From Sciscionella sediminilitoris (GTDB taxonomy: Bacteria; Actinomycetota; Actinomycetes; Mycobacteriales; Pseudonocardiaceae): a stretch of 64,000 nucleotides of DNA. Below the pieces are notes generated by a model. That model was given only the letters and a program-made list of their open reading frames with translations. It made no database searches and was not told the origin of the DNA. The stretch's first letter is position 1. Every line of letters begins with the position of its first letter. The position numbers and the translations under genes were made by a program. This document shows, piece after piece, positions 49,099 through 63,500 of this stretch. The DNA lies in contig NZ_JALM01000009.1 of the NCBI RefSeq assembly GCF_000737195.2, positions 124,001 through 188,000 of the forward strand, written 5' to 3'.

Positions 49099-50119
49099 CT
49101 AGAGCTCCAGCGCGACGGTGCCCGCGCGGCGTCCGAACTCGTCGAGCAGCTGGCCCATCCGCTTCCGGTGGCCGCAGCGCGATCGAACGGTCCAGGATCC
49201 GCAGCCCGGGAACCCGGCCGGTCAGCTCGGATTCGAACCGCTGCAGTTCGGCCGGGGTGCGCAGCCACAGCGCGCACAGCATGGTGGCCTGCCCTCCGGT
49301 GATGCCGGCGACCAGCCTGCTGTGCCGCATCCCGGCGACCAGTCGCGCGGTCTCCCCGGCCCGGTCCGGGGGCGCGCTGACCCAGACGACCGCGGAGACC
49401 GGCCAGCCGGACCATTCCTTGGACAGCTCGCAGCGCAGGGTCAGCTTTCCCTGGCCGAGCAGGGTTTCCATGGTGCGGCGCACGGTGTTCACACTGGTGC
49501 CGAGCACCCCGGCCAGTTCGGTGTAGCTGCGCCGCCCGTCCTTGCTCAGCTCGCGGATCAGCACCCGTTCCGCCTCGGTGTACGGGCGGCTTTCCACCGG
49601 GGTCACCGCGCGCGGTTCGAGCAGGGCCTGTTGCTGAGCGGTGGTGAGCGAGGACAACCGCCAGCGGCTGCCGTCCTGGTGCAGCGTGGACACCACCTGG
49701 CTCTGGGTGCGCGCGAGCTCGAGCGGCCCCAGCTCCTCGAGGAACCGGGAGAGCCCGTCGGTGCTCCCGGTCAGCACGGTGAGCAGCAGATCCCGGCTGC
49801 CGCTCGTGTACTCCACGGTCAGGACGCGCGGATCCCCGGCGAGCACATCCGCGACCTCGCCGATCCGGCCGGGTGTGCAGCGCACTTCGACGAAGCTGAA
49901 ACAGAGCCGTTCGAGATCGCGCTTGCCCGGATAGGCGGTCACCCAGGCCTGACCGGAGTCGCGCAGCCGGGCCCACCGGCGGCCGACGGTACCGGGATCG
50001 AGCCCGATGGTCCGCGCGATCCGGTTCCAGGTGGCGCGCGGATTCACCTGGAGTGCGTGCAGGATCGCCAGGTCCGCCTCGTCATAGGCGGAAACTTCTG
50101 GCAAACCGGGCTCGCTCAT
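49099..50119 (-). CDS. Two-module Lrp/AsnC-family regulator with an apparent frameshift near the 3' end
   Basis: Two full Lrp units in one chain: helix-turn-helix (DLAILHALQVNPRATWNRIARTIGLDPGTVGRRWARL) and RAM domain, then a second pair (EAERVLIRELSKDGRRSYTELAGVLGTSVNTVRRTMETLLGQGKL). In the written frame the C-terminus runs on into nonsense to 48908. Dropping one base near 49168-49175 instead gives LRHRKRMGQLLDEFGRR-AGTVALEL and a TAG at 49099-49101, a natural end for this family (about 339 residues). Probably a sequencing error or a recent mutation. It diverges from the M20 amidohydrolase and likely regulates it. Confidence 0.8.
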
Positions 50120-50210
50120 GGAAATTCCTCGCCCCCTCCGCCATTCCGGACCGGCCGGTCCCGCATCATCGAATCACCATCGAGGATGTGACCGAGGAAA
50201 GGGTGCGTGG

Positions 50211-51413
50211 ATGAGTCTGTCCGGAATCGCCGAGGATGCCCGCGAACTGTCCGGGGAACTGGCCCGGCTGCGGCATCGGCTGCACCGCAGCCCGGAGACG
50301 GGACTGAACCTGCCGCGTACCCAGGAGGCGGTGCTCGCGGAACTGGACGGGCTGCCGCTGGAGATCAGCACCGGGGAGGCGCTTTCCTCGGTGGTCGGCG
50401 TGCTCCGTGGCGCGCGGAAGGGGCCCGCCGTGCTGCTGCGCGGGGACATGGACGCCCTTCCGGTCGCCGAGCGCAGCGGGGTGGAGTTCGCCGCGACCAG
50501 CGGTTCCATGCACGCCTGCGGGCACGATCTGCACACCACGATGCTCGTCGGCGCGGCCCGGCTGCTCGCCGACCGCCGCGCCGAACTCGACGGCGACGTG
50601 GTGTTCATGTTCCAGCCGGGAGAGGAAGGCCATGACGGCGCGAGCCACATGATCAGCGAGGGCGTGCTGGAGGCGAGCGGTGCCCGTCCGGTGGCCGCCT
50701 ACGGGCTGCACGTGATGGCCTCGGTGGTGCCGCACGGCGTGTTCACCACCCGGCCCGGGCCGATGATGGCCGCCTCGGACACCGTCACCGTCACGGTCAC
50801 CGGAGCGGGCGGGCACGGTTCGGCACCGCATCGCGGACTGGACCCCATTCCGGCCGCCTGCAGCATGGTCGGCGAGCTGCAGACGATGGTGACCCGCCGG
50901 TTCGACGTGTTCGATCCCGTCGTGGTGACCGTGGGTTCCTTCCACGCGGGTACCCAGCACAACATCATTCCCGAGCAGGTCCGCTTCGAGGCCACCGTGC
51001 GCTCGCTCTCGGCCGAATCGCACGCCAGGGTCAAGGACGCCTTCGTGACCGTGTGCGAGGGGATCGCGAGCGCGCACGGGCTCGCCGTGGACATCGACTA
51101 CCGGCGGCTCTACCCGGTCACCGAGAACGACGCCGAGCAGGCCCGGTTCGCCGCCGATACGGTGCGCGAGCTGCACGGGGAACAGAGCATCGAACCGGCG
51201 AGGAATCCGTTCACCTGCTCCGAGGACTTCTCCCGGGTGCTGCACAACGTTCCCGGCGCCTTCCTCGCACTCGGGGCCTGCCCGGAAGGGGCCGATCCGG
51301 CGAGCATGCCGAACAACCACTCACCGCAGGCCCTGTTCGCCGATGAGGTGCTGGACCGGGGCGCGGCCGCCTATGCCGGGCTCGCCCATCGCAGGCTCGC
51401 CGCGGCCGGGTAG
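50211..51413 (+). CDS. M20-family metallo-amidohydrolase (hippurate hydrolase / IAA-amino acid hydrolase type)
   Basis: A 400-residue zinc- or manganese-dependent enzyme: RGDMDALPV, metal site HACGHDLHTT, GEEGHDGA, the dimerisation-domain segment GAGGHGSAPHRGLDPI and a late metal residue in SEDFSRVL. Family members cleave N-acyl amino acids and related amides in the cytoplasm. GAGGAAAGG upstream supports ATG 50211. Its promoter region is shared with the divergent two-module Lrp gene, the classic arrangement for control by an amino acid-responsive regulator. Confidence 0.93.
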   Translation: MSLSGIAEDARELSGELARLRHRLHRSPETGLNLPRTQEAVLAELDGLPLEISTGEALSSVVGVLRGARKGPAVLLRGDMDALPVAERSGVEFAATSGSMHACGHDLHTTMLVGAARLLADRRAELDGDVVFMFQPGEEGHDGASHMISEGVLEASGARPVAAYGLHVMASVVPHGVFTTRPGPMMAASDTVTVTVTGAGGHGSAPHRGLDPIPAACSMVGELQTMVTRRFDVFDPVVVTVGSFHAGTQHNIIPEQVRFEATVRSLSAESHARVKDAFVTVCEGIASAHGLAVDIDYRRLYPVTENDAEQARFAADTVRELHGEQSIEPARNPFTCSEDFSRVLHNVPGAFLALGACPEGADPASMPNNHSPQALFADEVLDRGAAAYAGLAHRRLAAAG

Positions 51414-51414
51414 C

Positions 51415-51762
51415 TCATGCGGCGTGCCTGCAGGTGGGACAGGTGCAGTCGGCGCAGGCACAGTTGACGCAGGCGCAGTCCCCCGCGCAGTTGCCGCACC
51501 GACAGTGCGCGTGATTGCAGGTCGGGCACTGACAGTCCGCGCAGTCGCACACGGCGCAGGAGTCCGTGCAGTGCGGGCACTGGCAGGTCACGCATTCGTC
51601 GTAGTGCATGCCCTCGGTTTCCTGATGCTCCCGGTGCACGTGCCCGTCGTGCAGGTAGTCCACGTGGTCGTGGTGGATCACCGCGTCGTGGCCGCACCGG
51701 GGGCCGTGGGTGTGCGCGTGCCGTTCCGCCGGTTGATGTGCTGTGTTCGCAGTCATGGCCAT
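51415..51762 (-). CDS. Cys/His-rich metal-binding protein, His-rich head plus metallothionein-like tail
   Basis: A 115-residue protein with 21 cysteines and 17 histidines. Residues 1-53 are His-rich (HAHTHGPRCGHDAVIHHDH, YLHDGHVHREH), like small actinomycete proteins annotated near zinc transport. Residues 57-111 hold 20 Cys spaced as CxC and CxxC, with an internal repeat CADCQCPTC / CADCTCPTC at 74-82 and 103-111. No signal peptide or catalytic domain, so a cytoplasmic metal buffer is inferred. The start may be ATG 51762 or 51756. An imperfect dyad (TTCA...TGAA, 51762-51787) lies over the start region, perhaps a metalloregulator site. Confidence 0.85.
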   Translation of the reverse strand: MAMTANTAHQPAERHAHTHGPRCGHDAVIHHDHVDYLHDGHVHREHQETEGMHYDECVTCQCPHCTDSCAVCDCADCQCPTCNHAHCRCGNCAGDCACVNCACADCTCPTCRHAA

Positions 51763-51872
51763 TCATGATGATATGCGCATTCGTGAACGCAAGTCGGCCG
51801 CGAGGTTTCACCCGGCAGAGTGGCCCCGCGAGACCGTCCGGGGCGTGCTCCGCCGGACCCGGCCGTCGGGAC

Positions 51873-52898
51873 TCAGGACGGCCCGATCCGGCGTAGATGT
51901 GCCTGAAGCGGGCTGGACGTAAATCCGTACCGGCGTTTGAAGTCCGGATTGCGGCGGCCGAGGTAGAGCCATTCTCGTTGTTTGCGGATGGTTTCCAGTA
52001 CCACATTGGCGGCGAGCACGTAGAACGGGCTGAAGTTGGGGCAGGCGTCCAGATCGAATCCGCAGAACGGGAAATGCGTCCGGGTGGTGTCGGAAAGCAG
52101 CACGGCCGAGCCGACGAGTTCACCTCGCGATCCGCGCAGTTCGAGGACGTCCACGTACTCGCCGAGATGACGCAGGAACTCGGGAAAGATGCCTTGTTGG
52201 TAATAGTCCGCGTTATCGTGTTTGGTCGCGGTGTGCCGGGCCAGCCGCATGAACCCGTCGATATCGGCGTCCTGGACGGACAACCGGCGAGTGGTGAAGC
52301 CGGTCTCGGCGGCGCGGCGCAGTTCGGCGCGCATGATCCGGCGCGGGTTGTGGCGTAGCGTGGCCAGCCAGCCTTCCACATCCTTGAACCCGTCCATCCG
52401 CATCCGCCAGCCGGTCTCGATGGTGGCGCCCGGATAGTCCTGCTCGGCGAGGACCGTGGACAGTGGGTCGATCTGGTCGACGTTCACCAGCCCGCACACT
52501 GCCGCTTTCCAGTCGGCGGCGAGGTCCCCGAGTGCGCGCAGTGCCGCGTGTACCGCGCCAGGATCATGCTCCGGACAGGTGGGCAGGGTCGATTCGTACG
52601 AGTGCCAGATGTGGCTGAGCAGCGCCGGACGGTTCAGCTCTTCGGGAAAATGCGTGGCGAGTACCCGCATCGGGTCGGTGCCGCACTGGAGATAAGCGGG
52701 AAGCACGGCGACCGCGGTTCCGTTCGGTGCCCGGACGGTCAGGTAGGCGGCACGCTCCAGCGGATGGATCGGGTGTTTTTCGAATGCCTCGAGGAACTGC
52801 CGGTAGTAGAAGACGGGTGCGTCGGTATCCCGGACGACCACGTCCCATTCATGGTCGACCTCGGCTATGTGTTCGGCGATCTGCACCGTATAGGCCAT
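51873..52898 (-). CDS. FemAB/GNAT-like peptidogalycan-type transferase
   Basis: A 341-residue protein with the FemAB-like acyltransferase pattern in its C-terminal half: RHNPRRIMRAELRRAAETGFT, DGFMRLARHTATKHDN, VGSAVLLSDTTRTHFPFCGFDLDACPNFSPFYVL and YLGRRNPDFKRRYGFTSSP. The N-terminal half is a second, more diverged GNAT-like fold. Related proteins transfer amino acids from aminoacyl-tRNA or acyl groups to an amine. It is the last gene of the prenyltransferase operon, 26 bases after the dehydrogenase, and may attach an amino acid to the pathway product (inference). Confidence 0.8.
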   Translation of the reverse strand: MAYTVQIAEHIAEVDHEWDVVVRDTDAPVFYYRQFLEAFEKHPIHPLERAAYLTVRAPNGTAVAVLPAYLQCGTDPMRVLATHFPEELNRPALLSHIWHSYESTLPTCPEHDPGAVHAALRALGDLAADWKAAVCGLVNVDQIDPLSTVLAEQDYPGATIETGWRMRMDGFKDVEGWLATLRHNPRRIMRAELRRAAETGFTTRRLSVQDADIDGFMRLARHTATKHDNADYYQQGIFPEFLRHLGEYVDVLELRGSRGELVGSAVLLSDTTRTHFPFCGFDLDACPNFSPFYVLAANVVLETIRKQREWLYLGRRNPDFKRRYGFTSSPLQAHLRRIGPS

Positions 52899-52924
52899 GC
52901 GGGTTCCCTTCGGCTGCGCGGGGA

Positions 52925-53986
52925 TCAGGAAAGACGGGGCTCGCTCCAGGTGAGGACGAGCTTTCCGGTTTCGGTCGAGCAAGCGCGGTCGAAGGCGGCC
53001 GCGTGCTCGGTGTAGGGGAAGTGCTCGGTCACCACCGATGCGGGACGTGCGCCGCTGTCGAGCAATGCCGTCACCTGTTGCCAGGTCTGGAAGATCCGTC
53101 GCCCCGAGACACCCTGGACGGTGAGCATCCGGACCGAGATGTTCGCCCAGTCGGTGTCCACCGGCCGGGCAGGCAGACCGAGCACCGCGACCTGACCACC
53201 GAAGGCCATGTTCCCGAGGAGCGCGTCCAGCGCGTCGGGGTGCCCGGACATCTCCAGGCCGATGTCGAACCCTTCGGTGCAGCCGAGTTCTTTGGCCGAG
53301 GAAGCGAGCGGTTCGTGCCCGGCCTCGCAGACAGCCGTGGCGCCCAGCCGGGTGGCGAGCTGGCGGCGGAACTCGCTCGGCTCGGCGACCACGACCGCAC
53401 GTGCGCCGAGCTCGCGCAGTACCGGAATGGTCATCAGGCCGATCGGACCGGCTCCGGTGAGGGCCACGATCTTGTCGAGAACCGGGAACTGGGAAGCGGT
53501 GTGCACCGCGTTGCCGAACGGGTCGAACAGAGTCGCGGTGTCCAGGTCGATATCGGGAGGATGCCGCCAGACGGCGGTGACCGGCAGGGTGGCGTACTCG
53601 GCGAACACCCCGTCGATGTCCACTCCGAGCCTGCGGGCCTTGGTGCACAGATGACCGTGCGCGGAGCGGCAGTGGCGGCATTTCCCGCACACCAGGTGGC
53701 CTTCGGCGCCGACGAGTTGTCCCGGAACGAAACCGCCGACCTCCGGTCCGCTCGCGACGATCTCGCCGACGAACTCGTGGCCCGGGATCAGCGGTGCCGC
53801 GATGGTCCGCTGCGCCCACTCCGACCAGCGGGCGATCTGAAGATCGGTGCCGCAGATGCCGGTGCGCAGTACCCTGACCAGTACCTCGCCGTTGCCCGGC
53901 CGCGGAACGGGCACTTCCTCGAGCTCCAGTCCGGGTCCGCTGTTCCGCCGTACGAGTGCCGCCATGGTGGCGGGAACCGCGTTCAC
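52925..53986 (-). CDS. Zinc-dependent dehydrogenase, threonine/sorbitol dehydrogenase-like
   Basis: A 353-residue medium-chain dehydrogenase: catalytic zinc ligands in GICGTDLQ and PGHEFVGEIV, structural zinc cysteines CGKCRHCRSAHGHLC, and the Rossmann motif GAGPIGLMTI. Overall closest in style to L-threonine 3-dehydrogenase. GTG 53986 overlaps the preceding stop as GTGA, giving tight coupling; an ATG at 53965 would be seven residues shorter. Presumably oxidises an alcohol or amino alcohol of the operon's product or precursor. Confidence 0.9.
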   Translation of the reverse strand: MNAVPATMAALVRRNSGPGLELEEVPVPRPGNGEVLVRVLRTGICGTDLQIARWSEWAQRTIAAPLIPGHEFVGEIVASGPEVGGFVPGQLVGAEGHLVCGKCRHCRSAHGHLCTKARRLGVDIDGVFAEYATLPVTAVWRHPPDIDLDTATLFDPFGNAVHTASQFPVLDKIVALTGAGPIGLMTIPVLRELGARAVVVAEPSEFRRQLATRLGATAVCEAGHEPLASSAKELGCTEGFDIGLEMSGHPDALDALLGNMAFGGQVAVLGLPARPVDTDWANISVRMLTVQGVSGRRIFQTWQQVTALLDSGARPASVVTEHFPYTEHAAAFDRACSTETGKLVLTWSEPRLS

Positions 53987-54519
53987 CGGACCGGCTCTTT
54001 CGGCGCCTGCTGCAAGGCCGCGAGGTCCACGTCGATGCGCTGGTCGTTCATCGTGGCCAGCCAGTGGCCGACGTCCAGCAGCCACCATCCGTTGACCGTC
54101 ACCTCATAGAAGCGGCGGTGTCCTTCGCCGTGGAACTCGGAAAGCGGTCGCCGCCACTGCTCGCGGACCTGCTCGTCCGGGAAGTTGCGGGTGTAGTAGA
54201 AATCCGCGTATTCGGCCAGTTCGGCCGCTTCCTCGATGGCCCGCGCGATCCCGGTGAACTGTGCGCCGTCGAGGCCCAGTTCGTTGGCCGCATCGGTGCG
54301 GAAGATGCTACCGGCGATCTCGGGGGCCACGTCGATATTGCGGGAATGCCGTACGTGCCGCTGCGAATACCACAGGAACCGCAACGGTCCCCGGAGCGGC
54401 ACGAAGTTCACGGTGCTCGCCCACGCATTCTCCGGGCTGTGCGTGGCGAGCGTGACGAACTGGCCGGTCTCGATCAGTACATTGCTGCGGTCGATCAGCG
54501 AATCAGAGGAAACCATCAT
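53983..54519 (-). CDS. PPOX-fold FMN-binding protein
   Basis: A 178-residue split-barrel flavin-binding type protein: SNVLIETGQFVTLATHSPENAWASTVNFVPLRGPLRFLWYSQRHVRHSRNI, GIARAIEEAAELAEYADFYYTRNF, and GHRRFYEVTVNGWWLLD. Its start overlaps the prenyltransferase stop as ATGA and its stop overlaps the dehydrogenase start as GTGA. Probably a flavin-dependent oxidoreductase in the same pathway; exact reaction unknown. Confidence 0.82.
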   Translation of the reverse strand: MMVSSDSLIDRSNVLIETGQFVTLATHSPENAWASTVNFVPLRGPLRFLWYSQRHVRHSRNIDVAPEIAGSIFRTDAANELGLDGAQFTGIARAIEEAAELAEYADFYYTRNFPDEQVREQWRRPLSEFHGEGHRRFYEVTVNGWWLLDVGHWLATMNDQRIDVDLAALQQAPKEPVR

Positions 54520-55430
54520 GCCTCCATCAGGTTGTCGAGTCTCGGCCGGCGGCCGGACGGGATCGAAGGTGGACTGCCGGTGTAGTCGGCCTCCACGGCC
54601 AGACAGCGGCCGCGCGGTCCATAGGTGGTGGAGAAGACCAAGTCCCGGTCCCCGGCGGGCAATCGCGCTTCTTCGGTGAAGGTCCTGGCGAGAACGCGCC
54701 AGCGCGCCGGGGAGTGGTCTTTCCGGGTGTGCACGGGAAAACGAAGCCGGAGAACACCGGGCTGGTCCCAGTGGAACGTGTAGCACACGGCGAACGCTTC
54801 GGTGTTTCGAAGCAGTTCGTGTTCGGAGGGAACCCGGAAGGAAAGTTCGGTTGTCAGCTCGAGTATGTCCTTTTTGGTGAACCGATGCGGCCGGAACGGG
54901 CCGAAGCAAAGCGTTGTCGAACGTTCTCGGAAGTCGAGGAGGAAGCCATAGATCCGATCCATCGAGTATCGGGTGAAATGGGAGTGGTACCCGACCGCGG
55001 TATCCGGCATGTTCGGAAGCTCGAGGACTTCTTCGAGAGGAATGCTGTCCAGTAGGAGCATGCGGACCCCGGCGAAACCGTTCGTCACTGTCGCATCCAC
55101 GCCCCATCGCCCGGTGAAGCCGGTTGCGATATCGGAAAGCAGACCCTCGATGGGGTGACCGCTCGACGTGAGTATGCCCTCCTCGCGCAGCGTCCGGGCC
55201 GGATTGTGTTCCGTCGATTGGGTCAGGTAGCGGAATTCGACATCTCGCCCCCTCGTTGGTTGTACCGTCGTGCCGATGCTCAGCCAGGAATCGGAATATG
55301 CGGCACCGAAGGTGGTCAGCATTCGATCAACGGCTGTTTCGTTGAAGTCCACCCCGCAGGCCTTGGCGTAGTGTTCGAGGGCAGCGCGCAGCTTCGGGAC
55401 GTCCTCGACCGGGATGGCAACCCTGGTCAA
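54516..55430 (-). CDS. ABBA-type aromatic prenyltransferase (CloQ/NphB family)
   Basis: A 304-residue soluble protein of the family's normal length. Segments that follow the NphB/CloQ order are LREEGILTSSGHPIEGLLSDI, GFAGVRMLLLDS, ELPNMPDTAVGYHSHFTRYSMDRIYGFLLDF, ELSFRVPSEHELL and CYTFHWDQPGVLRLRFPV. These enzymes transfer a dimethylallyl or geranyl group to an aromatic ring without a metal-binding DDxxD motif, which is absent here. TTG 55430 is the start, overlapping the methyltransferase stop as TTGA; the rare start suggests translational coupling. Acceptor unknown. Confidence 0.85.
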   Translation of the reverse strand: MTRVAIPVEDVPKLRAALEHYAKACGVDFNETAVDRMLTTFGAAYSDSWLSIGTTVQPTRGRDVEFRYLTQSTEHNPARTLREEGILTSSGHPIEGLLSDIATGFTGRWGVDATVTNGFAGVRMLLLDSIPLEEVLELPNMPDTAVGYHSHFTRYSMDRIYGFLLDFRERSTTLCFGPFRPHRFTKKDILELTTELSFRVPSEHELLRNTEAFAVCYTFHWDQPGVLRLRFPVHTRKDHSPARWRVLARTFTEEARLPAGDRDLVFSTTYGPRGRCLAVEADYTGSPPSIPSGRRPRLDNLMEA

Positions 55431-56161
55431 GACTTACGGCAATCGATCAGCGCGGCGTGCGGGCAGTCGAGATACGGCCGCCAGTACTGTTCGCCGCGAT
55501 CGGAGATTCCCTGTGCGGACACGCGGTACGGCGGCCAGTCGATCGAATCGAAACCGGCAGCGTGGAGCGCGCGCTCGAGGGTCGGTCTGGTCCAGTACCT
55601 GGCGATCACGTCCTCCTGGTAGCGGCCGAAGCGCAATTCGAGCCGTACCCGCGAGGCGTCGGCGCGCGGTTCGGTGTCGAGCATGCGAAGGCCGTAGGGC
55701 GTGTAGTACTCGGCGCGTGGGTCGTAGTCCGGGTTTATCGGCAGCGTGAGGAAACGGCCCCCGGGGCGCAGTGTCCTGCCCGCGATGGAGCACAAATCAA
55801 CCAGCTCGGAGTAGTTCTCAGCATAGGGCAGCACGTATACCCCGATGGCCAGATCGAAGCTGCCCGGATCGCTGAGTGGTGGTTCGTCGACGTATTCGAT
55901 GCCTTGGCGCTTCGTTTCTTCGATCCGGGACGCGTGAGCAAGCATCTGCTCGGATGCGTCGAATCCGACGACCCGATCGGCGCCCAGTTCGTTGAGCCGT
56001 CTGCTGTAGACACCAGATCCGCAGCCGATGTCGAGAACCGACTTTCCGGTGACGTCACCGATGAGGCTCAGGACACTGTGCATCTCCAGCTGAACACGCC
56101 AATCGAGATCGAACATGTCCTCGTAGACCTGTGGCAGCTCGTCGAACTGACTGCGTGACAT
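55427..56161 (-). CDS. SAM-dependent methyltransferase, class I
   Basis: A 244-residue methyltransferase with SAM motif I in SVLDIGCGSGVYSRRLNELG, motif II VVGFDASEQMLAHA, and FDLAIGVYVLPYAEN and LRPGGRFLTLPINP later. First gene of the five-gene operon; its stop overlaps the prenyltransferase start. ATG 56161 has a GAAGGGAG upstream at a slightly long distance; the frame stays open to 56356 but the extra 65 residues look non-coding. A role as C-, N- or O-methyltransferase on the pathway intermediate is inferred. Confidence 0.88.
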   Translation of the reverse strand: MSRSQFDELPQVYEDMFDLDWRVQLEMHSVLSLIGDVTGKSVLDIGCGSGVYSRRLNELGADRVVGFDASEQMLAHASRIEETKRQGIEYVDEPPLSDPGSFDLAIGVYVLPYAENYSELVDLCSIAGRTLRPGGRFLTLPINPDYDPRAEYYTPYGLRMLDTEPRADASRVRLELRFGRYQEDVIARYWTRPTLERALHAAGFDSIDWPPYRVSAQGISDRGEQYWRPYLDCPHAALIDCRKS

Positions 56162-56666
56162 GACCGAGCGGCTCCCTTCTCCGCGAACCTTGCCGAGCTC
56201 CGAAGATTTCAGCGCGCGAATGAGGTCGTCAACGCGCGGTTCCGGGCGGCGGAACCCGCGGACGGTGGATGGATTCAGGCGGGTCGGACGTTCAGGGCGC
56301 GCCCGGCTCCGGTGTTCAGTGGCGGGACCCACTCGCTGTAGCCTTTTTTCGGGCATAGCTGAATTCCCAAATGGGCATAACCTCGATTCGGGCCGTTTTG
56401 TGCTGCGCCGCCCGGGATGGCGGCTCGGTTCGGATCGGAGAAACCGCAGGTCGTGGCGTGCTTGTCGGTGCCGAGCTCACCCGCGGTGGGGGTAATTTCA
56501 CGCCCTGCTTGCGAATGCCGCGAGGGCGGAACTACTGTTCATTTCGTCCATTAATTGTTTTCTTGCCACGGGTGAAATGTAGTCGGCCGGCGATCCCGCG
56601 CCGGGAATTGATTTTCAGCTGAACGGGTCTCCGTGTTCGGTGGCCCGCATGGAAAAGGAGAAATGT
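56162..56666. other. 505-base intergenic region between divergent operons
   Basis: No convincing gene is present. It must hold promoters for the prenyltransferase operon (minus strand) and the secreted protein (plus strand). The part from about 56335 to 56400 and the part from 56530 to 56620 are AT-richer than the flanks (for example CCTTTTTTCG, CATTAATTG), which fits promoter positions. A short dyad CCCA-AA-TGGG lies at 56366-56375. No strong terminator or known operator was recognised. Confidence 0.6.
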
Positions 56667-57275
56667 ATGAAGGCTCGTCTCGGTCGGAAATCGCTCATGG
56701 CCACCGCGGCCGCGTTCGCGCTGGCCGCCGGTTTCGCGGGCACCGCCTCGGGTGCGACCGCCGCGGATGAACCGGTGAGATCCACCGATCTCGTTCAGGT
56801 GAGCGCGGACAGCGGCTCGATCGCCAATCCGTCCAAGTTCGTGATCACGAACGTCGCGGACCATTCCGGTAAGGTGGAGAACATCCCGGCGGGGACCAAG
56901 TTCCTGCTGAACGGTAACTCGCTCGCCCGGCTTTCCGGGCCGAGCAACGACCTGAACTGGAATCTCCAGATTCTGGAGATCAACAACAAGCAGTACACCC
57001 AGGTCACGCTGAAGAACGATCTGCAGCCCGGTGAATCGCACACGGTCGAACTCGGCCATTTCAACGTGTCCATCGGCTCGAACGATGTGCTCGGCCTCGC
57101 GCCGTACGATTCGCAGCCGATCCGCACCAAGCAGGAGCTGAACAGCACCGAGTGGGCCAATCCCGGTGACTCCTCGGCCCGGTTCAACAACGCCGCGCAG
57201 ATCAAGTGCATCGCCACCGCCTTCCCGATCGCGGGCTGGTGCGATGGCTCCAACAGCGTGCCGACTCCGTGGTGA
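56667..57275 (+). CDS. Small secreted protein of unknown function
   Basis: A 202-residue protein with a clear signal peptide (RKSLMATAAAFALAAGFAGTASGATAAD). The mature part has beta-rich segments (IANPSKFVITNVADHSG, VENIPAGTKFLLNGNSLARL, YTQVTLKNDLQPGESHTVEL) and two late cysteines (IKCIATAFPIAGWCDG) that could form a disulfide. No family recognised. AAGGAG at 56655-56660 supports ATG 56667. It is followed immediately by a secreted lipase, so the two may be exported together. Confidence 0.8.
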   Translation: MKARLGRKSLMATAAAFALAAGFAGTASGATAADEPVRSTDLVQVSADSGSIANPSKFVITNVADHSGKVENIPAGTKFLLNGNSLARLSGPSNDLNWNLQILEINNKQYTQVTLKNDLQPGESHTVELGHFNVSIGSNDVLGLAPYDSQPIRTKQELNSTEWANPGDSSARFNNAAQIKCIATAFPIAGWCDGSNSVPTPW

Positions 57276-57295
57276 TACTCGGCCCGGTCGCAGCG

Positions 57296-58507
57296 ATGCG
57301 GCCGGGCATCCCGGTACCGAAACCCAGGTGGTTCGCCATTCTGGCTGCCGTGCTGCTCACCCTGTGCGGGGTGCCGAGCATTCCCGCCCCGGCCCAGCCC
57401 GTGCGGGCCGGGGATGTGCTCGGTGCCGAACCGAGCCGATTCAGCCTCGACCCGTTCGGGAAAACCCCGGTGCCCGGGGTGCGCGCCACGAAGATCACCT
57501 ACCGATCGCGGGACGCGCTGAACCGGCCGATCGAGGTCACCGGAACCGTTCTGGTGCCCGAAAAACCCTGGCGCGGCACGGGTCCGCGTCCGCTGATCGG
57601 TTATGCCTCGGGCACCAAGGGCTGGGTGGATCGCTGCGCCCCCTCCCGGCAGCTTCCCCAGGGAATCGACTACAACGGCCCGCAGCTGGCGGCGCTGCTC
57701 GCGCACGGCTGGGCGGTGACCATGACCGACTACGAGGGGTTGGGTCACGGTGGCGAACACACCTGGCAGGTGGCCGATTCCGAGGCGCACACCGTGCTGG
57801 ACTCCGTGCGCGCCGCGCAGCGCCTTCCCGGAAGCGGGCTCGGTTGGCAGACGCCGGTCGGCATCTACGGCTATTCGCAGGGCGGCGGTGCGGCCGCCGC
57901 GGTCGCGGAACAGGCTGCGAGCTACGCGCCCGAGCTGGTCATCAAGGGCGTCTCGGCCGGGGGTGTGCCCTCCGACTGGAACGTGCACCTCAACACGTAC
58001 CAGGCGGGCCGGTTGACCACGGGCACCGCGGTCATGGTCGGCGCCGGTTTCGCGCATGCCTATCCCGAACTGAAATTCGGCCGATACCTCAGCGAACGCG
58101 GGAGGAAACTGTACGACTTCCTGCGTTCGCGCTGTCTGGCCCAGCCGGACTCGTTTCTCGCGCTGCTCGGCACCGCCGACGGGAAGGTGAACCGGTTCTT
58201 CGGCGCGGTCGACCCGTTCCGCACCGGTCCCTGGCTGCGCCGGTTCGCCGAGAACCGGATCGGTGACCGCAGACCCCCGATGCCGGTGCTGCTCTTCCAT
58301 GGCGCACAGGACGAGATCGTGCCCGTCGACATGGCCAGGACGCTGCGCCGGGACTGGTGCGCCCGCGGCGCGAACATCACCTGGCAGGAGTATCCGATGG
58401 TGGAACACATCCTCGCTTTCGAACTGAACACGCCCGCCTCGATCGATTTTCTCGACCGGCGCTTCCGGAACGTTGCCACGGGCGGGAACTGCGGCACCGG
58501 GCGGTGA
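57296..58507 (+). CDS. Secreted lipase, CAL-A / secretory lipase family
   Basis: A 403-residue enzyme: signal peptide (RWFAILAAVLLTLCGVPSIPAPAQ), PLIGYASGTKGWVDRCAPS, MTDYEGLGHGGEH, nucleophile elbow YGYSQGGGAAAAVAE, acid in LFHGAQDEIVP and His in EYPMVEHILAFE. Family hydrolyses lipid esters outside the cell. ATG 57296 gives the best signal sequence; a GTG at 57272 overlapping the preceding stop (GTGA) is an alternative start by coupling. Related to, but shorter than, the lipase at 27587-28984. Confidence 0.9.
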   Translation: MRPGIPVPKPRWFAILAAVLLTLCGVPSIPAPAQPVRAGDVLGAEPSRFSLDPFGKTPVPGVRATKITYRSRDALNRPIEVTGTVLVPEKPWRGTGPRPLIGYASGTKGWVDRCAPSRQLPQGIDYNGPQLAALLAHGWAVTMTDYEGLGHGGEHTWQVADSEAHTVLDSVRAAQRLPGSGLGWQTPVGIYGYSQGGGAAAAVAEQAASYAPELVIKGVSAGGVPSDWNVHLNTYQAGRLTTGTAVMVGAGFAHAYPELKFGRYLSERGRKLYDFLRSRCLAQPDSFLALLGTADGKVNRFFGAVDPFRTGPWLRRFAENRIGDRRPPMPVLLFHGAQDEIVPVDMARTLRRDWCARGANITWQEYPMVEHILAFELNTPASIDFLDRRFRNVATGGNCGTGR

Positions 58508-58513
58508 ACCGGC

Positions 58514-59287
58514 TCAGGCCGTGAAGTACTGACTCGGTGCCACACCGAGGGTTTTGCGGAACATGGCGGTGAACGCGCTCGGGCTGTGGTAACCGAGCTG
58601 GCTCGCGGTCATCCCGATCGTGTTCCCGCCCGCCAGCAGCTGCACGGCGGTGAGCAGCCGGGCCTGCTGGCGCCAGCGGCCGAGGCTCCATCCGGTCTCG
58701 GCGCGGAACCGCCTGGCGAGGGTGCGCTCGCTCAGGTGCGCGATCCGCGCCGACTCGGCGAAGGTCCACTCCTGCTCGGGCTCGGCCATGATCCGGGTGC
58801 ACAACCGGGCGAGGCCGGGATTGTGCGGCATCGGCAGGTGCAGCGGGAGCACGGGAGCGGGCACGAGCTCGTCCAGCAGCAGGGAGACCACTTTCCCGTC
58901 CCGCCCGCTCTCCTCGTATTCGGTGGGCATCCTGGTGCACGCGATGATGAGTTCGCGGGCAAGCGGGGAGACCGAGATCACCATGCACCGGGTCGGCGGG
59001 GTGGCCTGCGCGCTCGGCTCGATGTAGAGCGTGCGCATGGGCACCGGTCCGCAGGTCCGGGTGGCGTGTTCCACCCCGGCGGGCACCCATACCGCGCGCT
59101 GCGGCGGTACCACCCAGGTCCCCTCGGTGGTGATCACGGTGATGGCCCCGCTCGCGCCGTAGATGAGCTGGTCCCTGCGGTGCGCGTGGGGCGGGATGTA
59201 GTGCCGGTCGGGCAGATCCCGCGCCATGCCGCCGACCGGGCGGGGAATGTCCTGGTAGTCGTCCCGGTCCTCGCTCTTCCCGTACAT
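58514..59287 (-). CDS. AraC-family transcriptional regulator
   Basis: A 257-residue regulator with an N-terminal cupin-like sensor (RHYIPPHAHRRDQLIYGASGAITVITTEGTWVVPPQRAVWVPAGVEHA) and a C-terminal double helix-turn-helix (WTFAESARIAHLSERTLARRFRAETGWSLGRWRQQARLL; TASQLGYHSPSAFTAMFRKTLGVAPSQYF). It diverges from the formamidase-like operon at 59393 and is the likely regulator of it. Convergent with the lipase gene (six-base gap). Confidence 0.93.
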   Translation of the reverse strand: MYGKSEDRDDYQDIPRPVGGMARDLPDRHYIPPHAHRRDQLIYGASGAITVITTEGTWVVPPQRAVWVPAGVEHATRTCGPVPMRTLYIEPSAQATPPTRCMVISVSPLARELIIACTRMPTEYEESGRDGKVVSLLLDELVPAPVLPLHLPMPHNPGLARLCTRIMAEPEQEWTFAESARIAHLSERTLARRFRAETGWSLGRWRQQARLLTAVQLLAGGNTIGMTASQLGYHSPSAFTAMFRKTLGVAPSQYFTA

Positions 59288-59392
59288 TTTGGCAGCTTCC
59301 CGACGATAGTTGGCTCAGATGCGGCCCTCGGCCAGTTCGGTTCCTCGTAGGTTTATAGACAGATCGGCGATGACTCGCAACAACCAAGGAGA

Positions 59393-60253
59393 ATGGCTGA
59401 CCGCATGAACGACCGGGCTTGGCTGGACGCGCAATACAATGTCCGCGCGGGTATCGATGACTATCTCTCGGTGTTCTCCCGTTTCTCGCGGGTGAGCGCC
59501 CCGGTGCGGGCCCGTAGGGACGCGGTGCTGGAGGTGTTCTACGGGGACAACGCGCTGCAGTCGGTGGACGTGTTCCCCGCGCGGGAATCGACCGGGGCGG
59601 ACCCGGTGCTGGTGTTCCTGCACGGCGGGTACTGGCAGTCGCTGGACAAGTCCATGTTCGCGTTCCTCGCCCAGTCCTACATCGAGCGCGGGGTCTGCTT
59701 CGCCGCGGTGAACTACCGGCTCGCCCCCGCGGTCGGCATGGACGAGATCGTGGCCGATGTCCGGGACGCCATCGGACTGGTGCACGACAAGGCCGCGGAC
59801 TTCGGTGCCGATCCGAACCGGCTCTATGTCGCGGGCCACTCGGCGGGCGGGCACCTCACCGCGCGGATGCTGGCCACCCGGTGGGCGGAGCTCGGCAGGC
59901 CCGCGGACCTGATCAAGGGCGGCTGCGCGATCAGCGGGCTCTACGACCTGGACCCGATCCAGCGCTGCTACCTCAATGATGTGGTCGGGATGGACGAGGC
60001 GACCGCGCAGCGGCACAGCCCGGTGCACGCCGAGCCCGCGGTCCCGACCCCGCTCATCCTCTCGGTCGGCGGGGACGAGTCCGCCGAATTCCACCGCCAG
60101 CAACGGGAATTCGCCGCTGCCTGGCGTGGCCGCGGGCACGACTGCCGGGTCGTCGACCAGCCGGACGGACACCATTTCCGTGCCGTGGAACGACTTTCCG
60201 AACAGGGCGACCCGCTCTTCGAGGCTACCCTCGGCATGGTGCGCGATGAATGA
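59393..60253 (+). CDS. Alpha/beta hydrolase, kynurenine formamidase-like
   Basis: A 286-residue protein with LVFLHGGYWQSLDKSMF (oxyanion loop HGGYW), VNYRLAPA, nucleophile elbow VAGHSAGGHLTARM, acid in LSVGGDESAEF and His in QPDGHHFRAVE. The HGG(Y/F)W plus GHSAGGH pattern is typical of kynurenine formamidases and related arylformamidases. AAGGAG at 59386-59391 lies one base before ATG 59393, so ATG 59405 may be the true start. Its stop overlaps the MOSC-reductase gene by eight bases. Confidence 0.85.
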   Translation: MADRMNDRAWLDAQYNVRAGIDDYLSVFSRFSRVSAPVRARRDAVLEVFYGDNALQSVDVFPARESTGADPVLVFLHGGYWQSLDKSMFAFLAQSYIERGVCFAAVNYRLAPAVGMDEIVADVRDAIGLVHDKAADFGADPNRLYVAGHSAGGHLTARMLATRWAELGRPADLIKGGCAISGLYDLDPIQRCYLNDVVGMDEATAQRHSPVHAEPAVPTPLILSVGGDESAEFHRQQREFAAAWRGRGHDCRVVDQPDGHHFRAVERLSEQGDPLFEATLGMVRDE

Positions 60254-62021
60254 CGACCAGGCTCGCCTTGCCCGGATCTACCGCTATCCGGTCAAGGGGC
60301 TGCACGGCCAGCGGCTGACCGGTACCGAGACCGCGGTGGGGCAGGGCCTGCCGTACGACCGGCGGTGGGCGATCGCCACCGGAGCGGAACCGGTCCCCGA
60401 AGGCGGTGCGTGGGTGCCACGCACCGCCTTCCTGCATCTGGCCAAGAACGCGGAGCTGACCCGGTTCGGCTCCGCGGTGCGGGACGGAGAACTGGCGTTG
60501 CGCGGGCCGGAAGGGATCGCAGCGGCACCCGAGCGCTGGTTCGACGCCCCGGTGGAGCTCGTCGAGGCCGCGAAAGCGTACTGGGACCAGGAGGACGCCA
60601 CCCTCTCGCTGATCAATCTGGAGACCGTCGCCGAGCTCGGTGAACTGGCCGAGACACCGCTGGATCCGTTGCGGTTCCGCGGCAATCTGTATCTCTCCGG
60701 GCTGCCCGCCTGGCGGGAACTGGGCCTGATCGGGCGGCGGCTGCGGATCGGCGAGGTCGAACTGGAGGTGCTGCGCCCGATCGCGCGCTGCCGGGCGACC
60801 TCGGTCAATCCGGCGACCGGGGAGGACGATGTGAACCTGCCCGCGCTGCTCGGCGCCCGGCACGGGCACATCTTCTGCGGGGTGTACGCCAGGGTGTGCC
60901 GTGCGGGAACGCTGCGCGAGGGCGCCACCGTGCTGGAGACCGGTGCCGCGGCCGCCGCGCTGCGTTCCGGGGCGGCCGCACCGTCCGCCCCGGATCTGCC
61001 GCGCTGGCCGCGCCCAGCCGAACTGGTGCGCAGAACCGAGGAAAGCGGTGCGGTGACCAGCTTCTGGCTTCGTGATCCACTGTGGACACTCGGCCTGGAA
61101 CCGAGTTCCGGCCAGCATCTGCGGGTGCATCTGCACGATGCGGAAGGCCCGCTGTGGCGCTCCTACACGATTTCCGGGGCCCGCGAAGGGCTGCTCCGGA
61201 TCAGCGTCAAACGCGAATCGGACGGCCGGGGATCCCGGCTGCTGCACGATTCGCTGCGGACCGGCTCGGATGTGCTGATCTCCGGGCCGTTCGGGGAACC
61301 CGCGCTGCCGGAGCCGGTGACCCGCCCGGTCGTGCTGGCCAGCGCGGGCATCGGGATCACGCCGATGCTGCCGATCCTGGCCGGGCTCGCCCGGATCGGG
61401 TTCACCGGTCCGGTGCTGTTCTGCCACACCGCCCGCGACGGCGGCCAGCTCGCCCTGTGGCAGGAGGCGAAGCGGCTCGCCGAACGGCTGCCCGGTGCGT
61501 GCCTCCGGCTGTACCTGACCAGGCCGGGCGCCCACGAGTGCGCGGAACTCGGTGCCACGGCAGGCCGCCCCTCGGTCGCCGCGCTGGCCGCCGAGCAGCT
61601 CTCGCTGCCGGACGCGGTGGCCCACCTCTGCGGCCCGGTGGAGTTCCAGAAGGAGTGCGGCACCGAACTGCGGGATGCGGGCCTGGTCGCGGATCGCCTG
61701 CATTACGAGGTGTTCCAGTCTCCGCGGATGACCGTCGGGCAGCGCAGCCCGGCACCGCGCCCCGGCCCGTTCCGGGTCCGGTTCGGCGTGAGCGGGGTGG
61801 AGCAGCAGTGGGATCCGGAAAGCGGCAGCCTGCTCGATCTCGCCGACCGGGCCGGGCTGCGGCTGCGGTCCGGTTGCCGGGAAGGCGCCTGCCAGAGCTG
61901 CGTGCAACAGGTCAGCTCGGGCGATACCGCGTACACCCTGGAACCGGTGCTGCAGCCGAGCGGGGACGCCGTGCTGTTGTGCTGTGCGGTGCCCACGAGC
62001 GACCTCACGATCGACGCCTGA
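60246..62021 (+). CDS. Three-domain fusion: MOSC domain, ferredoxin-NAD(P)+ reductase domain and 2Fe-2S ferredoxin
   Basis: A 591-residue protein. Residues 1-105 are MOSC_N (ARIYRYPVKGLHGQRL), 105-235 the MOSC domain with RFRGNLYL and RPIARCRATSVNP (the conserved Cys). About 255-490 is an FAD/NAD(P)-binding reductase (PLWRSYTISGA, GIGITPMLPIL, HLCGPVEF). Residues 510-591 are a plant-type ferredoxin with SGCREGACQSC and a fourth cysteine near CCAV. The molybdenum-cofactor-related MOSC unit fed by its own electron chain suggests a self-contained reductase, possibly for N-hydroxylated compounds as in mARC proteins. It overlaps both neighbours. Confidence 0.9.
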   Translation: MNDDQARLARIYRYPVKGLHGQRLTGTETAVGQGLPYDRRWAIATGAEPVPEGGAWVPRTAFLHLAKNAELTRFGSAVRDGELALRGPEGIAAAPERWFDAPVELVEAAKAYWDQEDATLSLINLETVAELGELAETPLDPLRFRGNLYLSGLPAWRELGLIGRRLRIGEVELEVLRPIARCRATSVNPATGEDDVNLPALLGARHGHIFCGVYARVCRAGTLREGATVLETGAAAAALRSGAAAPSAPDLPRWPRPAELVRRTEESGAVTSFWLRDPLWTLGLEPSSGQHLRVHLHDAEGPLWRSYTISGAREGLLRISVKRESDGRGSRLLHDSLRTGSDVLISGPFGEPALPEPVTRPVVLASAGIGITPMLPILAGLARIGFTGPVLFCHTARDGGQLALWQEAKRLAERLPGACLRLYLTRPGAHECAELGATAGRPSVAALAAEQLSLPDAVAHLCGPVEFQKECGTELRDAGLVADRLHYEVFQSPRMTVGQRSPAPRPGPFRVRFGVSGVEQQWDPESGSLLDLADRAGLRLRSGCREGACQSCVQQVSSGDTAYTLEPVLQPSGDAVLLCCAVPTSDLTIDA

Positions 62022-63312
62022 GCGAGACCGGGGCGGGCACTTCCGCGCTCGTACTGCTGGAGCCGGTGCGCAGCAGCAGCGCGGCGCCCGCCCCGATCAG
62101 TGAGCACAGCACCAGATAACCGGCGATCGCGAGCCCGGAACCGGTCCAGCCGTAGAGCGCGGTCGCGATGATCGGCGCGGGCCCGCCCGAGATGATCGAG
62201 GCGAGCTGGGAGCCGAGCGCGGTACCGCTGTAGCGCACCTCGGGCGGGAAGCTCTCCGCGATCAGCGCAGCCTGCGGGCCGTACTGGATGTCGTGCAGCA
62301 CAAGCGAAACGGTGACCGCGACCGCGATGAGCGCGGTGGTTCCGGTGTCCAGAAGGGGAAAGTAGGCCAGGCTCCACACCGCGGTGAGCAGTGCGCCGAC
62401 GACATAGACGCGTTTGCGCCGCCAGCGATCGGAGAGGTGCCCGAACAGCGGAATCGTCACCAGGGAGAGCACCGAGGCGAACAGCACGATGTTCAGCACG
62501 CGATTTTCCGGTAGCCCGAGGAAGTTCTTCCCATAGGTGATGACGAAAGTCGTGAATATGTAGAACGGCGCCATTTCGGATGTGCGGGTGAGCGCGGCGA
62601 GCAGCACCTGACGCCAGTGCCCGCGCAGCAGCACCAGCAGCGGATTCGCGGTACTCTTCGGCGCTTCGGCCCGCGGTTCCTCGACCTTGGCCCGGATGTA
62701 GAGGGTCGCCCCGATCAGTACCGCGCTCGCGATGAACGGAATCCGCCAGGACCATTCGGCGAACTGGTCCGAACCGGTTACCCCGAGCGTGGCGATGATG
62801 GCGAGGTTGGCCAGGATCAGTCCCAGCGGGGAACCGACCTGCGCCCAGGAGGCGAAGAACCCGCGTCGTTTGGCCTGCCCCGTTTCCATGGAGACCAGCA
62901 CCGCGCCCGCCCACTGCCCGCCGAGCCCGATGCCCTGCACCACGCGGAGCACGACGAGGATGATCGCGCCCGCGAGCCCCGCGGTCTCGTAGCCGGGAAC
63001 GAGCGCGACGGCGAAGGTGGGTATTCCCATGCAGAGCGTGCTGGAGATGAGCGCGGTGCGGCGGCTGAGCCGGTCGCCGAAATGGCCGAACAGCATCGCG
63101 CCCGCGGGCCGGGCGATGAATCCGACGGCGAAGATCGCGAAGGACTGCAGTGTTCCGGATGTGGCGCTGGAGGCCGGAAAGAAGACGTGTCCGAAGACAA
63201 GTCCGGAGACCAGGCCGTACAGATAATAGTCGTACCACTCGATCGCGGTGGTCAGAACGCTGGTGGCGGTGGCGCGCCGATTCCTGCGCGCTTGGTCCGG
63301 GGAGTTCGGCAC
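62005..63312 (-). CDS. MFS transporter, metabolite:H+ symporter (MHS) type
   Basis: A 435-residue twelve-helix transporter. Family marks are SVLTTAIEWYDYYLYGLVSGLVF, FAVGFIARPAGAMLFGHFGDRLSRR, VLRVVQGIGLGGQWAGAVL and PLFGHLSDRWRRKRV. MHS proteins import organic acids, amino acids or betaine-like compounds with protons. Its 3' end overlaps the MOSC-fusion gene by 17 bases (convergent). Substrate unknown. Confidence 0.93.
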   Translation of the reverse strand: MPNSPDQARRNRRATATSVLTTAIEWYDYYLYGLVSGLVFGHVFFPASSATSGTLQSFAIFAVGFIARPAGAMLFGHFGDRLSRRTALISSTLCMGIPTFAVALVPGYETAGLAGAIILVVLRVVQGIGLGGQWAGAVLVSMETGQAKRRGFFASWAQVGSPLGLILANLAIIATLGVTGSDQFAEWSWRIPFIASAVLIGATLYIRAKVEEPRAEAPKSTANPLLVLLRGHWRQVLLAALTRTSEMAPFYIFTTFVITYGKNFLGLPENRVLNIVLFASVLSLVTIPLFGHLSDRWRRKRVYVVGALLTAVWSLAYFPLLDTGTTALIAVAVTVSLVLHDIQYGPQAALIAESFPPEVRYSGTALGSQLASIISGGPAPIIATALYGWTGSGLAIAGYLVLCSLIGAGAALLLRTGSSSTSAEVPAPVSLRRRS

Positions 63313-63500
63313 ATCATCTCCTGACGAACAATCGCTGGTCGTGAAGAGGGTGTTCCGCTCAGCCTCTCACCGGATGAGCCGACGGACTGTCGCATGCCGG
63401 TCGATGAGCATCGGAGACCGGCCAAAAACGGCGAGGGCGACTTCCGGTGTCACCCGAATTGCCCTTACGGGCGCGATCGGGGCGGCGTTAGGCTGCGCCG

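Follow-up and report, generated by a model that had tools for sequence, protein, structure and literature searches.

The five-gene operon

We analysed a window of 64,000 nucleotides from Sciscionella sediminilitoris (Pseudonocardiaceae), positions 124,001 to 188,000 of contig NZ_JALM01000009.1 (G000:C9:124001-188000 in our numbering of the 7.4 Mb draft genome G000, which has 215 contigs and is 96.87% complete). Five minus-strand genes with intact reading frames fill positions 51873-56161 of this window exactly, and we read them as a candidate pathway for a small heterocyclic product. In order they encode a methyltransferase (MT), an ABBA-fold prenyltransferase homologue (PT), a split-barrel flavin protein (FMN, after flavin mononucleotide), a threonine dehydrogenase-like enzyme (TDH) and a FemAB-type transferase (FemAB; Table 1). 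Re-reading the window confirmed the five genes, their coordinates and the three overlapping junctions of the original prediction, which was made from the letters of the DNA alone: TTGA between MT and PT, ATGA between PT and FMN, and GTGA between FMN and TDH. A gap of 26 bases separates TDH from FemAB.

The expectation of a tightly coupled small-molecule operon lacking a polyketide synthase (PKS) or nonribosomal peptide synthetase (NRPS) was also borne out. A Pfam scan of the neighbouring genes at 48.4-60.3 kb found neither, including no NRPS with the terminal reductase of the AusA type, and no aromatic-precursor gene; the longest called gene of the window encodes 730 aa. A sigma-70 scan returned no promoter-like site (chance expectation 0.6). 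Codon use had been described as less GC-biased than in the flanks, which holds for only part of the operon: the G+C content at third codon positions (GC3) of PT (0.744), MT (0.771) and FemAB (0.787) falls below that of each of the other 55 genes called in the window (mean 0.878, sd 0.028), whereas FMN (0.849) and TDH (0.839) lie inside their range, a background biased by a gene caller that prefers high GC3 and overlooked PT itself. Just 3' of FemAB, at 51415-51762 on the minus strand, lies a gene for a 115-aa protein with many CxxC and His motifs, metallothionein-like by eye and matching no Pfam or NCBIfam family.

Table 1. Genes of the operon, with window coordinates and family matches
Feature	Position	Strand	Family evidence
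S-adenosylmethionine (SAM) methyltransferase (MT), ToxA-like, 244 aa	55427-56161	-	Pfam Methyltransf_23 1.8e-13, Methyltransf_25
ABBA-fold aromatic prenyltransferase homologue (PT, P0002), 304 aa, TTG start	54516-55430	-	PTase_Orf2/PF11468 1.6e-31
PNPOx-like split-barrel flavin protein (FMN), 178 aa	53983-54519	-	PNPOx_N 2.5e-6
L-threonine 3-dehydrogenase-like Zn enzyme (TDH, P0004), 353 aa, GTG start	52925-53986	-	ADH_N 2e-25 + ADH_zinc_N; NCBIfam 1.2e-125
FemAB/GNAT-fold transferase (FemAB), 341 aa	51873-52898	-	Acetyltransf_6 5.5e-10 + FemAB_like

A four-gene core and the place of the prenyltransferase homologue

Actinocrispum wychmicini (G130), of the same family, has the same succession of MT (47% identity), FMN (69%), TDH (77%) and FemAB (71%), all encoded on one strand, with no PT match within the 19 kb read there; by eye, the genes flanking its operon differ from those of the window. 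Of 294 family genomes searched for FemAB, 40 gave a match, the closest besides the window's own being Actinocrispum at 71% and the next best reaching 39%; among 394 class-level genomes eight matched, none besides the window's own above 38%. A genome-contig scan with two N-terminal FemAB patterns returned Actinocrispum alone, which tests absence elsewhere weakly, and the genome searches score just part of the first-look candidates. The full order MT-PT-FMN-TDH-FemAB was seen in this genome alone. The original prediction had placed the operon around the prenyltransferase; the only other intact copy found lacks PT, and by gene order and identity the conserved unit is MT-FMN-TDH-FemAB, with PT not part of it.

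The locus history could be read from the other sampled species of the genus (G040), which is 93-94% identical to the window at both flanks (49980-51828 and 58451-63478) with a net 6 kb missing between them. All that survives in between is a broken remnant of FMN, matching at 88% across segments of 244 and 90 bases, together with 59 bases that in the window stand immediately upstream of MT. Because this FMN remnant sits at the same locus, the operon is older than the species split: the ancestor of both species had it at this place, and G040 has since lost it. The same evidence fails to support a recent transfer into the window species, an idea considered on account of the low GC3 (the original prediction had hinted at transfer); an older transfer may have taken place. 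The G040 deletion (L155 9740-10416 against window 51828-58451) also takes nearly all of the plus-strand genes at 56640-58507, which encode a short protein without a family match and a secretory-lipase-family protein.

A decaying or chance assembly of leftover genes with no joint product is highly improbable. Such an assembly would suit the low GC3 of three genes, the changed PT residues described below and the near-complete deletion in G040; against it stand a gene order kept at 47-77% identity in another genus, intact frames throughout and three overlapping junctions.

PT is a clear member of its family by profile (PF11468, 110 bits against a cut-off of 22) and the only PF11468 match in the draft genome. 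It shares 24-26% identity with AmbP3, AmbP1 and NphB. ABBA genes are rare in the sampled genomes, occurring in 6 of 297 family genomes and 9 of 394 class genomes with the window's own included; a scan of all genome contigs found no PT relative, and ABBA relatives in a plasmid search reached 28% at most. In a tree of 26 rows, which leaves out CloQ, Fnq26, PpzP and SCO7190 (all named in the original prediction) and has NphB as a fragment, PT groups with two tandem prenyltransferases of genome G604 (38% and 31% identity; support 97/96) outside the NphB and AmbP clades, in keeping with the separate branch that the original prediction had proposed as one sign of novelty. Near the G604 tandem pair (L111 8970-10825), inspection by eye suggests genes for proC and for isopentenyl-diphosphate isomerase; the 14 kb read at that locus showed neither a relative of FemAB or FMN nor a PKS or NRPS.

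An alignment of 26 rows, PT itself included as one of them, showed that PT has G121, T173, C175 and A278 where the rows have Lys (25/26), Asn (23/26), Tyr (25/26) and Lys (19/26), respectively, so that the conserved Lys/Asn/Tyr/Lys set of the ABBA family is missing from it. The A278 column holds Asn in three of the 26 rows, and PT keeps R170 and R228. We take the changed columns, from NphB structures, to be diphosphate-site and shield residues. An arginine two residues after G121 could compensate for the lost lysine. PT may be inactive as a prenyltransferase, or changed in its reaction. With three near-invariant residues and a lysine common in the family replaced in PT, prenylation of the product is doubtful, and the prenylated product of the original prediction is not supported.

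These observations bear on the product first proposed, a prenylated, methylated and aminoacylated small aromatic, which would need an ordinary ABBA enzyme acting on an aromatic supplied from outside. The PF11468 match, the intact overlapping frame of PT and the isomerase gene read by eye near its closest relatives would suit such a product, but we consider it quite unlikely given that the only other intact operon does without PT, that PT carries Gly, Thr, Cys and Ala at the columns named above, and that the scanned neighbours include no aromatic-precursor gene. Since MT and FMN adjoin without PT in three other loci (L048, L144, L145), PT is more likely an insertion between them here than a gene lost elsewhere.

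Partners of the flavin protein and of the core enzymes

The flavin protein proved the most informative about pathway type. A profile that includes the FMN paralogue of this genome (below) matched 37 of 210 family genomes, and of the 21 places that reached about 110 bits or more we looked at 20, window included, leaving aside one fragment at a contig edge in G201. In 17 of these 20 loci an enzyme expected to make an aminoketone or aminoaldehyde is found no more than about 8 kb from FMN. The context is TDH with FemAB in two (the window and Actinocrispum), an alpha-oxoamine synthase with FemAB in seven (L094, L146-L150 and L152, five of which come from one genus) and an NRPS reductase domain in eight (L144, the L145 fragment, L151, L153, L154, L156, L157 and L158). 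The product expected of these enzymes carries an alpha-aminoketone or aminoaldehyde, the functional group through which dihydropyrazinones and dihydropyrazines close their ring.

For comparison, 20 control stretches of 19.9 kb each, taken at round rather than random positions in ten of the same genomes, gave no match to the reductase domain or to either FemAB (0/20) and one tdh-kbl pair (1/20; TDH 48%, oxoamine synthase 26%). An earlier control on weak FMN relatives found a reductase domain in 1 of 30 loci and an oxoamine synthase, FemAB or TDH in none, although 27 of the 30 loci span just 1.8-3.5 kb and the single locus with the domain, L161, turns out to be closely related when its whole reading frame is compared (2e-34). 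L161, a lower-scoring FMN match, also has the domain set A-T-R.

The NRPS-type loci include close relatives of the MT-FMN pair. In G109 (L144) a pair at 47% (MT) and 48% (FMN) identity lies about 1.8 kb from a 2073-aa NRPS called by Pfam as A-T-C-A-T-R, and in G027 a 142-aa fragment (L145 10278-10706) stands right after an MT-FMN pair; it shares 76% identity with the reductase end of that NRPS and is apparently the relic of a lost synthetase. FMN relatives in six further loci have an NRPS reductase domain within 8.2 kb, adjacent to FMN in L151 and 2.8 kb away in L157. L151 and L157 carry A-T-R, and L156 and L158 a partly called A with T-R; in L153 and L154 the reductase was recognised solely by its likeness (40-41%) to the domain in L144, and a PKS gene is present in L154 as well. 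Read as a locus in its own right, L144 9375-18719, with MT, FMN, a helix-turn-helix regulator and the A-T-C-A-T-R NRPS, is a candidate methylated pyrazinone cluster.

The same draft genome holds a second locus of this kind, L094 (7511-14285 = G000:C20:249510-256284), with an FMN paralogue (30%, 6e-20), a FemAB paralogue (25%, 1e-4) and a methyltransferase, and on the divergent side an oxoamine-synthase-like enzyme, a methyltransferase, an acyl-AMP-ligase-type enzyme and a carrier protein. By gene content we consider it a second candidate aminoketone/pyrazinone locus. FMN, FemAB, an alpha-oxoamine-synthase-like enzyme and a different methyltransferase occur together in six loci beyond L094.

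MT (METHYLTRANSFERASE) accompanies FMN in part of this family. In a survey of ten further genomes its best matches, at 46-53% identity, were in G109, G027, G153 and G201, in each case no more than 1.6 kb from an FMN gene (for G201, MT shares the contig whose edge bears the FMN fragment). The best match in the other six genomes was 29-40%. G016 and G065, both among those six, carry other methyltransferases at their FMN loci, which are of the oxoamine-synthase and A-T-R types; the ToxA-like MT thus goes with only part of the FMN family. The best solved relatives of MT are ToxA entries 8rdl (2e-26) and 5jdy (4e-26). ToxA, the toxoflavin N-methyltransferase, methylates a lactam-bearing heterocycle. 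A toxoflavin-type pathway, suggested by this likeness, was discarded as a candidate: unlike the setting of ToxA, the scanned neighbours of MT include no such genes.

The operon TDH exceeds the NCBIfam PRK05396 cut-off (418.9 bits against 380). Its residues C45, H70, E71, C100, C103, C106 and C114 align with the solved threonine dehydrogenase 5kia and with the housekeeping copies, and these Cys, His and Glu positions presumably include the zinc ligands. In both G000 and G130 a second TDH (48-49% identity to the operon enzyme) lies elsewhere in the genome, followed directly by a gene above the cut-off for glycine C-acetyltransferase (Kbl). Because both genomes keep this separate tdh-kbl pair, the operon TDH is by sequence an extra copy without a Kbl partner, a situation that fits the need to release aminoacetone under its predicted activity.

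For FemAB, a profile of 15 sequences matched the solved entries 9wqy (4e-5) and 9wqw (8e-5), then FemX 6snr weakly at 0.11; the label of the first two, 'aminoacyl-tRNA-dependent peptide synthase', is the depositors' name, and we found no paper on these entries. K321 in the C-terminal FKRRYGF motif is almost invariant among the 15 sequences and is a candidate counterpart of FemX Lys305. An AlphaFold model (mean predicted local distance difference test score, pLDDT, 38) was too low in confidence for use on the two-GNAT-domain fold, as was that of the FMN protein (mean pLDDT 33) for any use. A plasmid search gave one FemAB relative, at 30%. Relatives at 25-38% elsewhere were rejected as pathway evidence, since they sit in other clusters, and served solely for profile building. 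Several of these (31-38%; L049-L053, L056 and L065) lie inside other gene clusters; L052, by eye, has its FemAB relative beside a ThiS-like/PP-loop fusion, a methyltransferase-aminotransferase fusion, an M28-like protein and a second FemAB-like protein, and homologues of the L052 neighbour genes occur in several of the other loci.

A proposed route to a methylated pyrazinone

Taken together, the gene content suggests a dedicated NRPS-free operon for a methylated 5-methylpyrazin-2-one, a reading to which we give a probability of about 0.58. The reactions, their order and the amino acid used are proposed as follows. Threonine, either free or after aminoacylation, would be oxidised at its beta-hydroxyl by the TDH-like enzyme, and decarboxylation would give aminoacetone or its N-acyl form. 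FemAB would move an amino acid from aminoacyl-tRNA to the amine, of aminoacetone or of threonine, yielding an N-aminoacyl-aminoacetone that would cyclise to a dihydropyrazinone. The FMN protein would oxidise and thereby aromatise this ring to a 3-substituted 5-methylpyrazin-2(1H)-one, and the ToxA-like MT would methylate the lactam N or O; the ABBA protein would be an accessory whose reaction is uncertain. The original prediction saw no core synthase, and TDH together with the FemAB transferase is a plausible one, the FMN relatives sitting with aminoketone and aminoaldehyde makers. For the same reason a pyrazinone is better supported than the generic aminoacylated aromatic first suggested.

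Several known systems resemble parts of this route; statements on the papers cited here refer to the portions of their text that were available. The autoinducer DPO (3,5-dimethylpyrazin-2-ol) depends on Tdh and derives from Tdh-produced aminoacetone and activated alanine (PMC12930378), so that, as proposed for the operon, a threonine dehydrogenase gives aminoacetone and an N-aminoacyl-aminoacetone becomes a 5-methyl pyrazinone. In that account DPO arises with no dedicated synthase, from Tdh and alanyl-adenylate made by various enzymes (PMC12930378), whereas the operon has an extra TDH together with a FemAB transferase, an FMN protein and a methyltransferase. The aureusimine pyrazinone synthetase AusA is built of the domains A-T-C-A-T-R (PMC12153313). 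Systems of the AusA type (aureusimine, phevalin) share with the operon the predicted ring, and in G109 an NRPS of this kind has close relatives of MT and FMN nearby; the operon, in contrast, has no NRPS, and its precursor would come from TDH and aminoacyl-tRNA. The CorA NRPS/PKS of coralinone likewise passes, as proposed, through a peptidyl beta-keto acid, decarboxylation and cyclisation to a ring with a 5-methyl group, but CorA is one megasynthase for which the available text describes no tRNA-dependent step (PMC10979478). FemX-like transferases act in an aminoacyl-tRNA-dependent manner in valanimycin, dehydrophos, pacidamycin and BD-12 biosynthesis (review PMC12945691); they resemble the operon FemAB in bringing a GNAT/FemAB fold into a natural-product gene set, although the acceptor proposed here, aminoacetone or threonine, is absent from the list in the accessible part of that review. 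NphB, AmbP1 and AmbP3 share PF11468 with PT and differ from it in the replaced residues and in its branching with the G604 pair (31-38%). In open-licence PMC papers we found no description of this operon; the parts are known, in a combination not found described in that literature.

The same logic of TDH and FemAB suits any N-acyl-alpha-aminoketone, and MT could act on several rings. The operon might thus make a 5-methyloxazole, by cyclodehydration of an N-acyl-aminoacetone, or a linear amide, with the FMN protein acting elsewhere. We regard this as unlikely: close to relatives of MT and FMN there is an NRPS that has the same domains as AusA, a type whose known members give dihydropyrazinones (PMC12153313, in the part available), and an aminoacyl rather than acyl donor would leave a free amine favouring ring closure.

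A number of observations weigh against the pyrazinone route or parts of it. The intact TDH-type operon is known from two genomes. TDH scores 366.8 bits against the NCBIfam TIGR00692 cut-off of 458.35 and the Actinocrispum operon copy 368, whereas the genome's own housekeeping TDH passes at 470.7, and both operon copies differ from the housekeeping enzymes in two motifs (GTDLHI to GTDLQI, GIYGRE to GVSGRR). Because of this score and these two changes, the TDH substrate may have shifted from free threonine, for example to aminoacyl-threonine. The match of the FemAB profile to solved enzymes is weak and partial (profile positions 147-308), and neither the single FemAB sequence nor the FMN protein retrieves a solved relative at E values up to 1. 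FMN exceeds the PNPOx_N cut-off barely (28.3 bits against 28.1). Among the 20 FMN loci, the remaining three (L142, L143 and the remnant L155) have no maker; L142 and L143 hold a weak FemAB-like protein and a 116-aa protein, with MT alongside in L143. The reductase domain lies 7-8 kb from FMN in L153, L154, L156 and L158, and the oxoamine-synthase and A-T-R types of FMN locus do without a ToxA-like MT. The loci are not independent, several being from a shared genus, and L144 and L094 themselves supplied the probes for the reductase, the oxoamine synthase and one of the FemAB proteins. Finally, the last oxidation in published pyrazinone pathways is thought to be spontaneous (PMC10979478, PMC12153313), so an oxidase is not strictly needed.

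The possible shift in TDH substrate defines a variant of the route, in which TDH would act on another beta-hydroxy amino acid or on aminoacyl-threonine, giving a different 5-substituent or placing FemAB before TDH. The motif changes and the TIGR00692 score point this way, as does the CorA proposal, in which a dipeptidyl beta-keto acid is decarboxylated and cyclised to 5-methylpyrazinones (PMC10979478); the alignment of the zinc-site positions with a solved threonine dehydrogenase and the PRK05396 score argue for an ordinary substrate. We hold this variant as a tentative possibility. A bolder form of the pyrazinone route, in which aminoacyl-tRNA replaces the NRPS, TDH and the FemAB-fold transferase make the ring precursor, a new split-barrel flavin family common to the TDH, oxoamine-synthase and NRPS-reductase clusters aromatises the ring and the ABBA protein, its prenyl-diphosphate site altered, is re-purposed to another donor or reaction on the pyrazinone, seems to us rather improbable as a whole.

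Pyrazinones have signalling roles in bacteria, and the aldehydes from which they form are protease inhibitors (PMC10979478, PMC12153313). Against DPO, proposed to form with no dedicated synthase, the operon is a candidate for a dedicated four-protein, NRPS-free pyrazinone route. The FMN protein is a candidate marker that joins TDH and FemAB, oxoamine synthase and FemAB, and reductase-terminated NRPS clusters; if this holds, it would reveal pyrazinone clusters hidden from NRPS-based searches.

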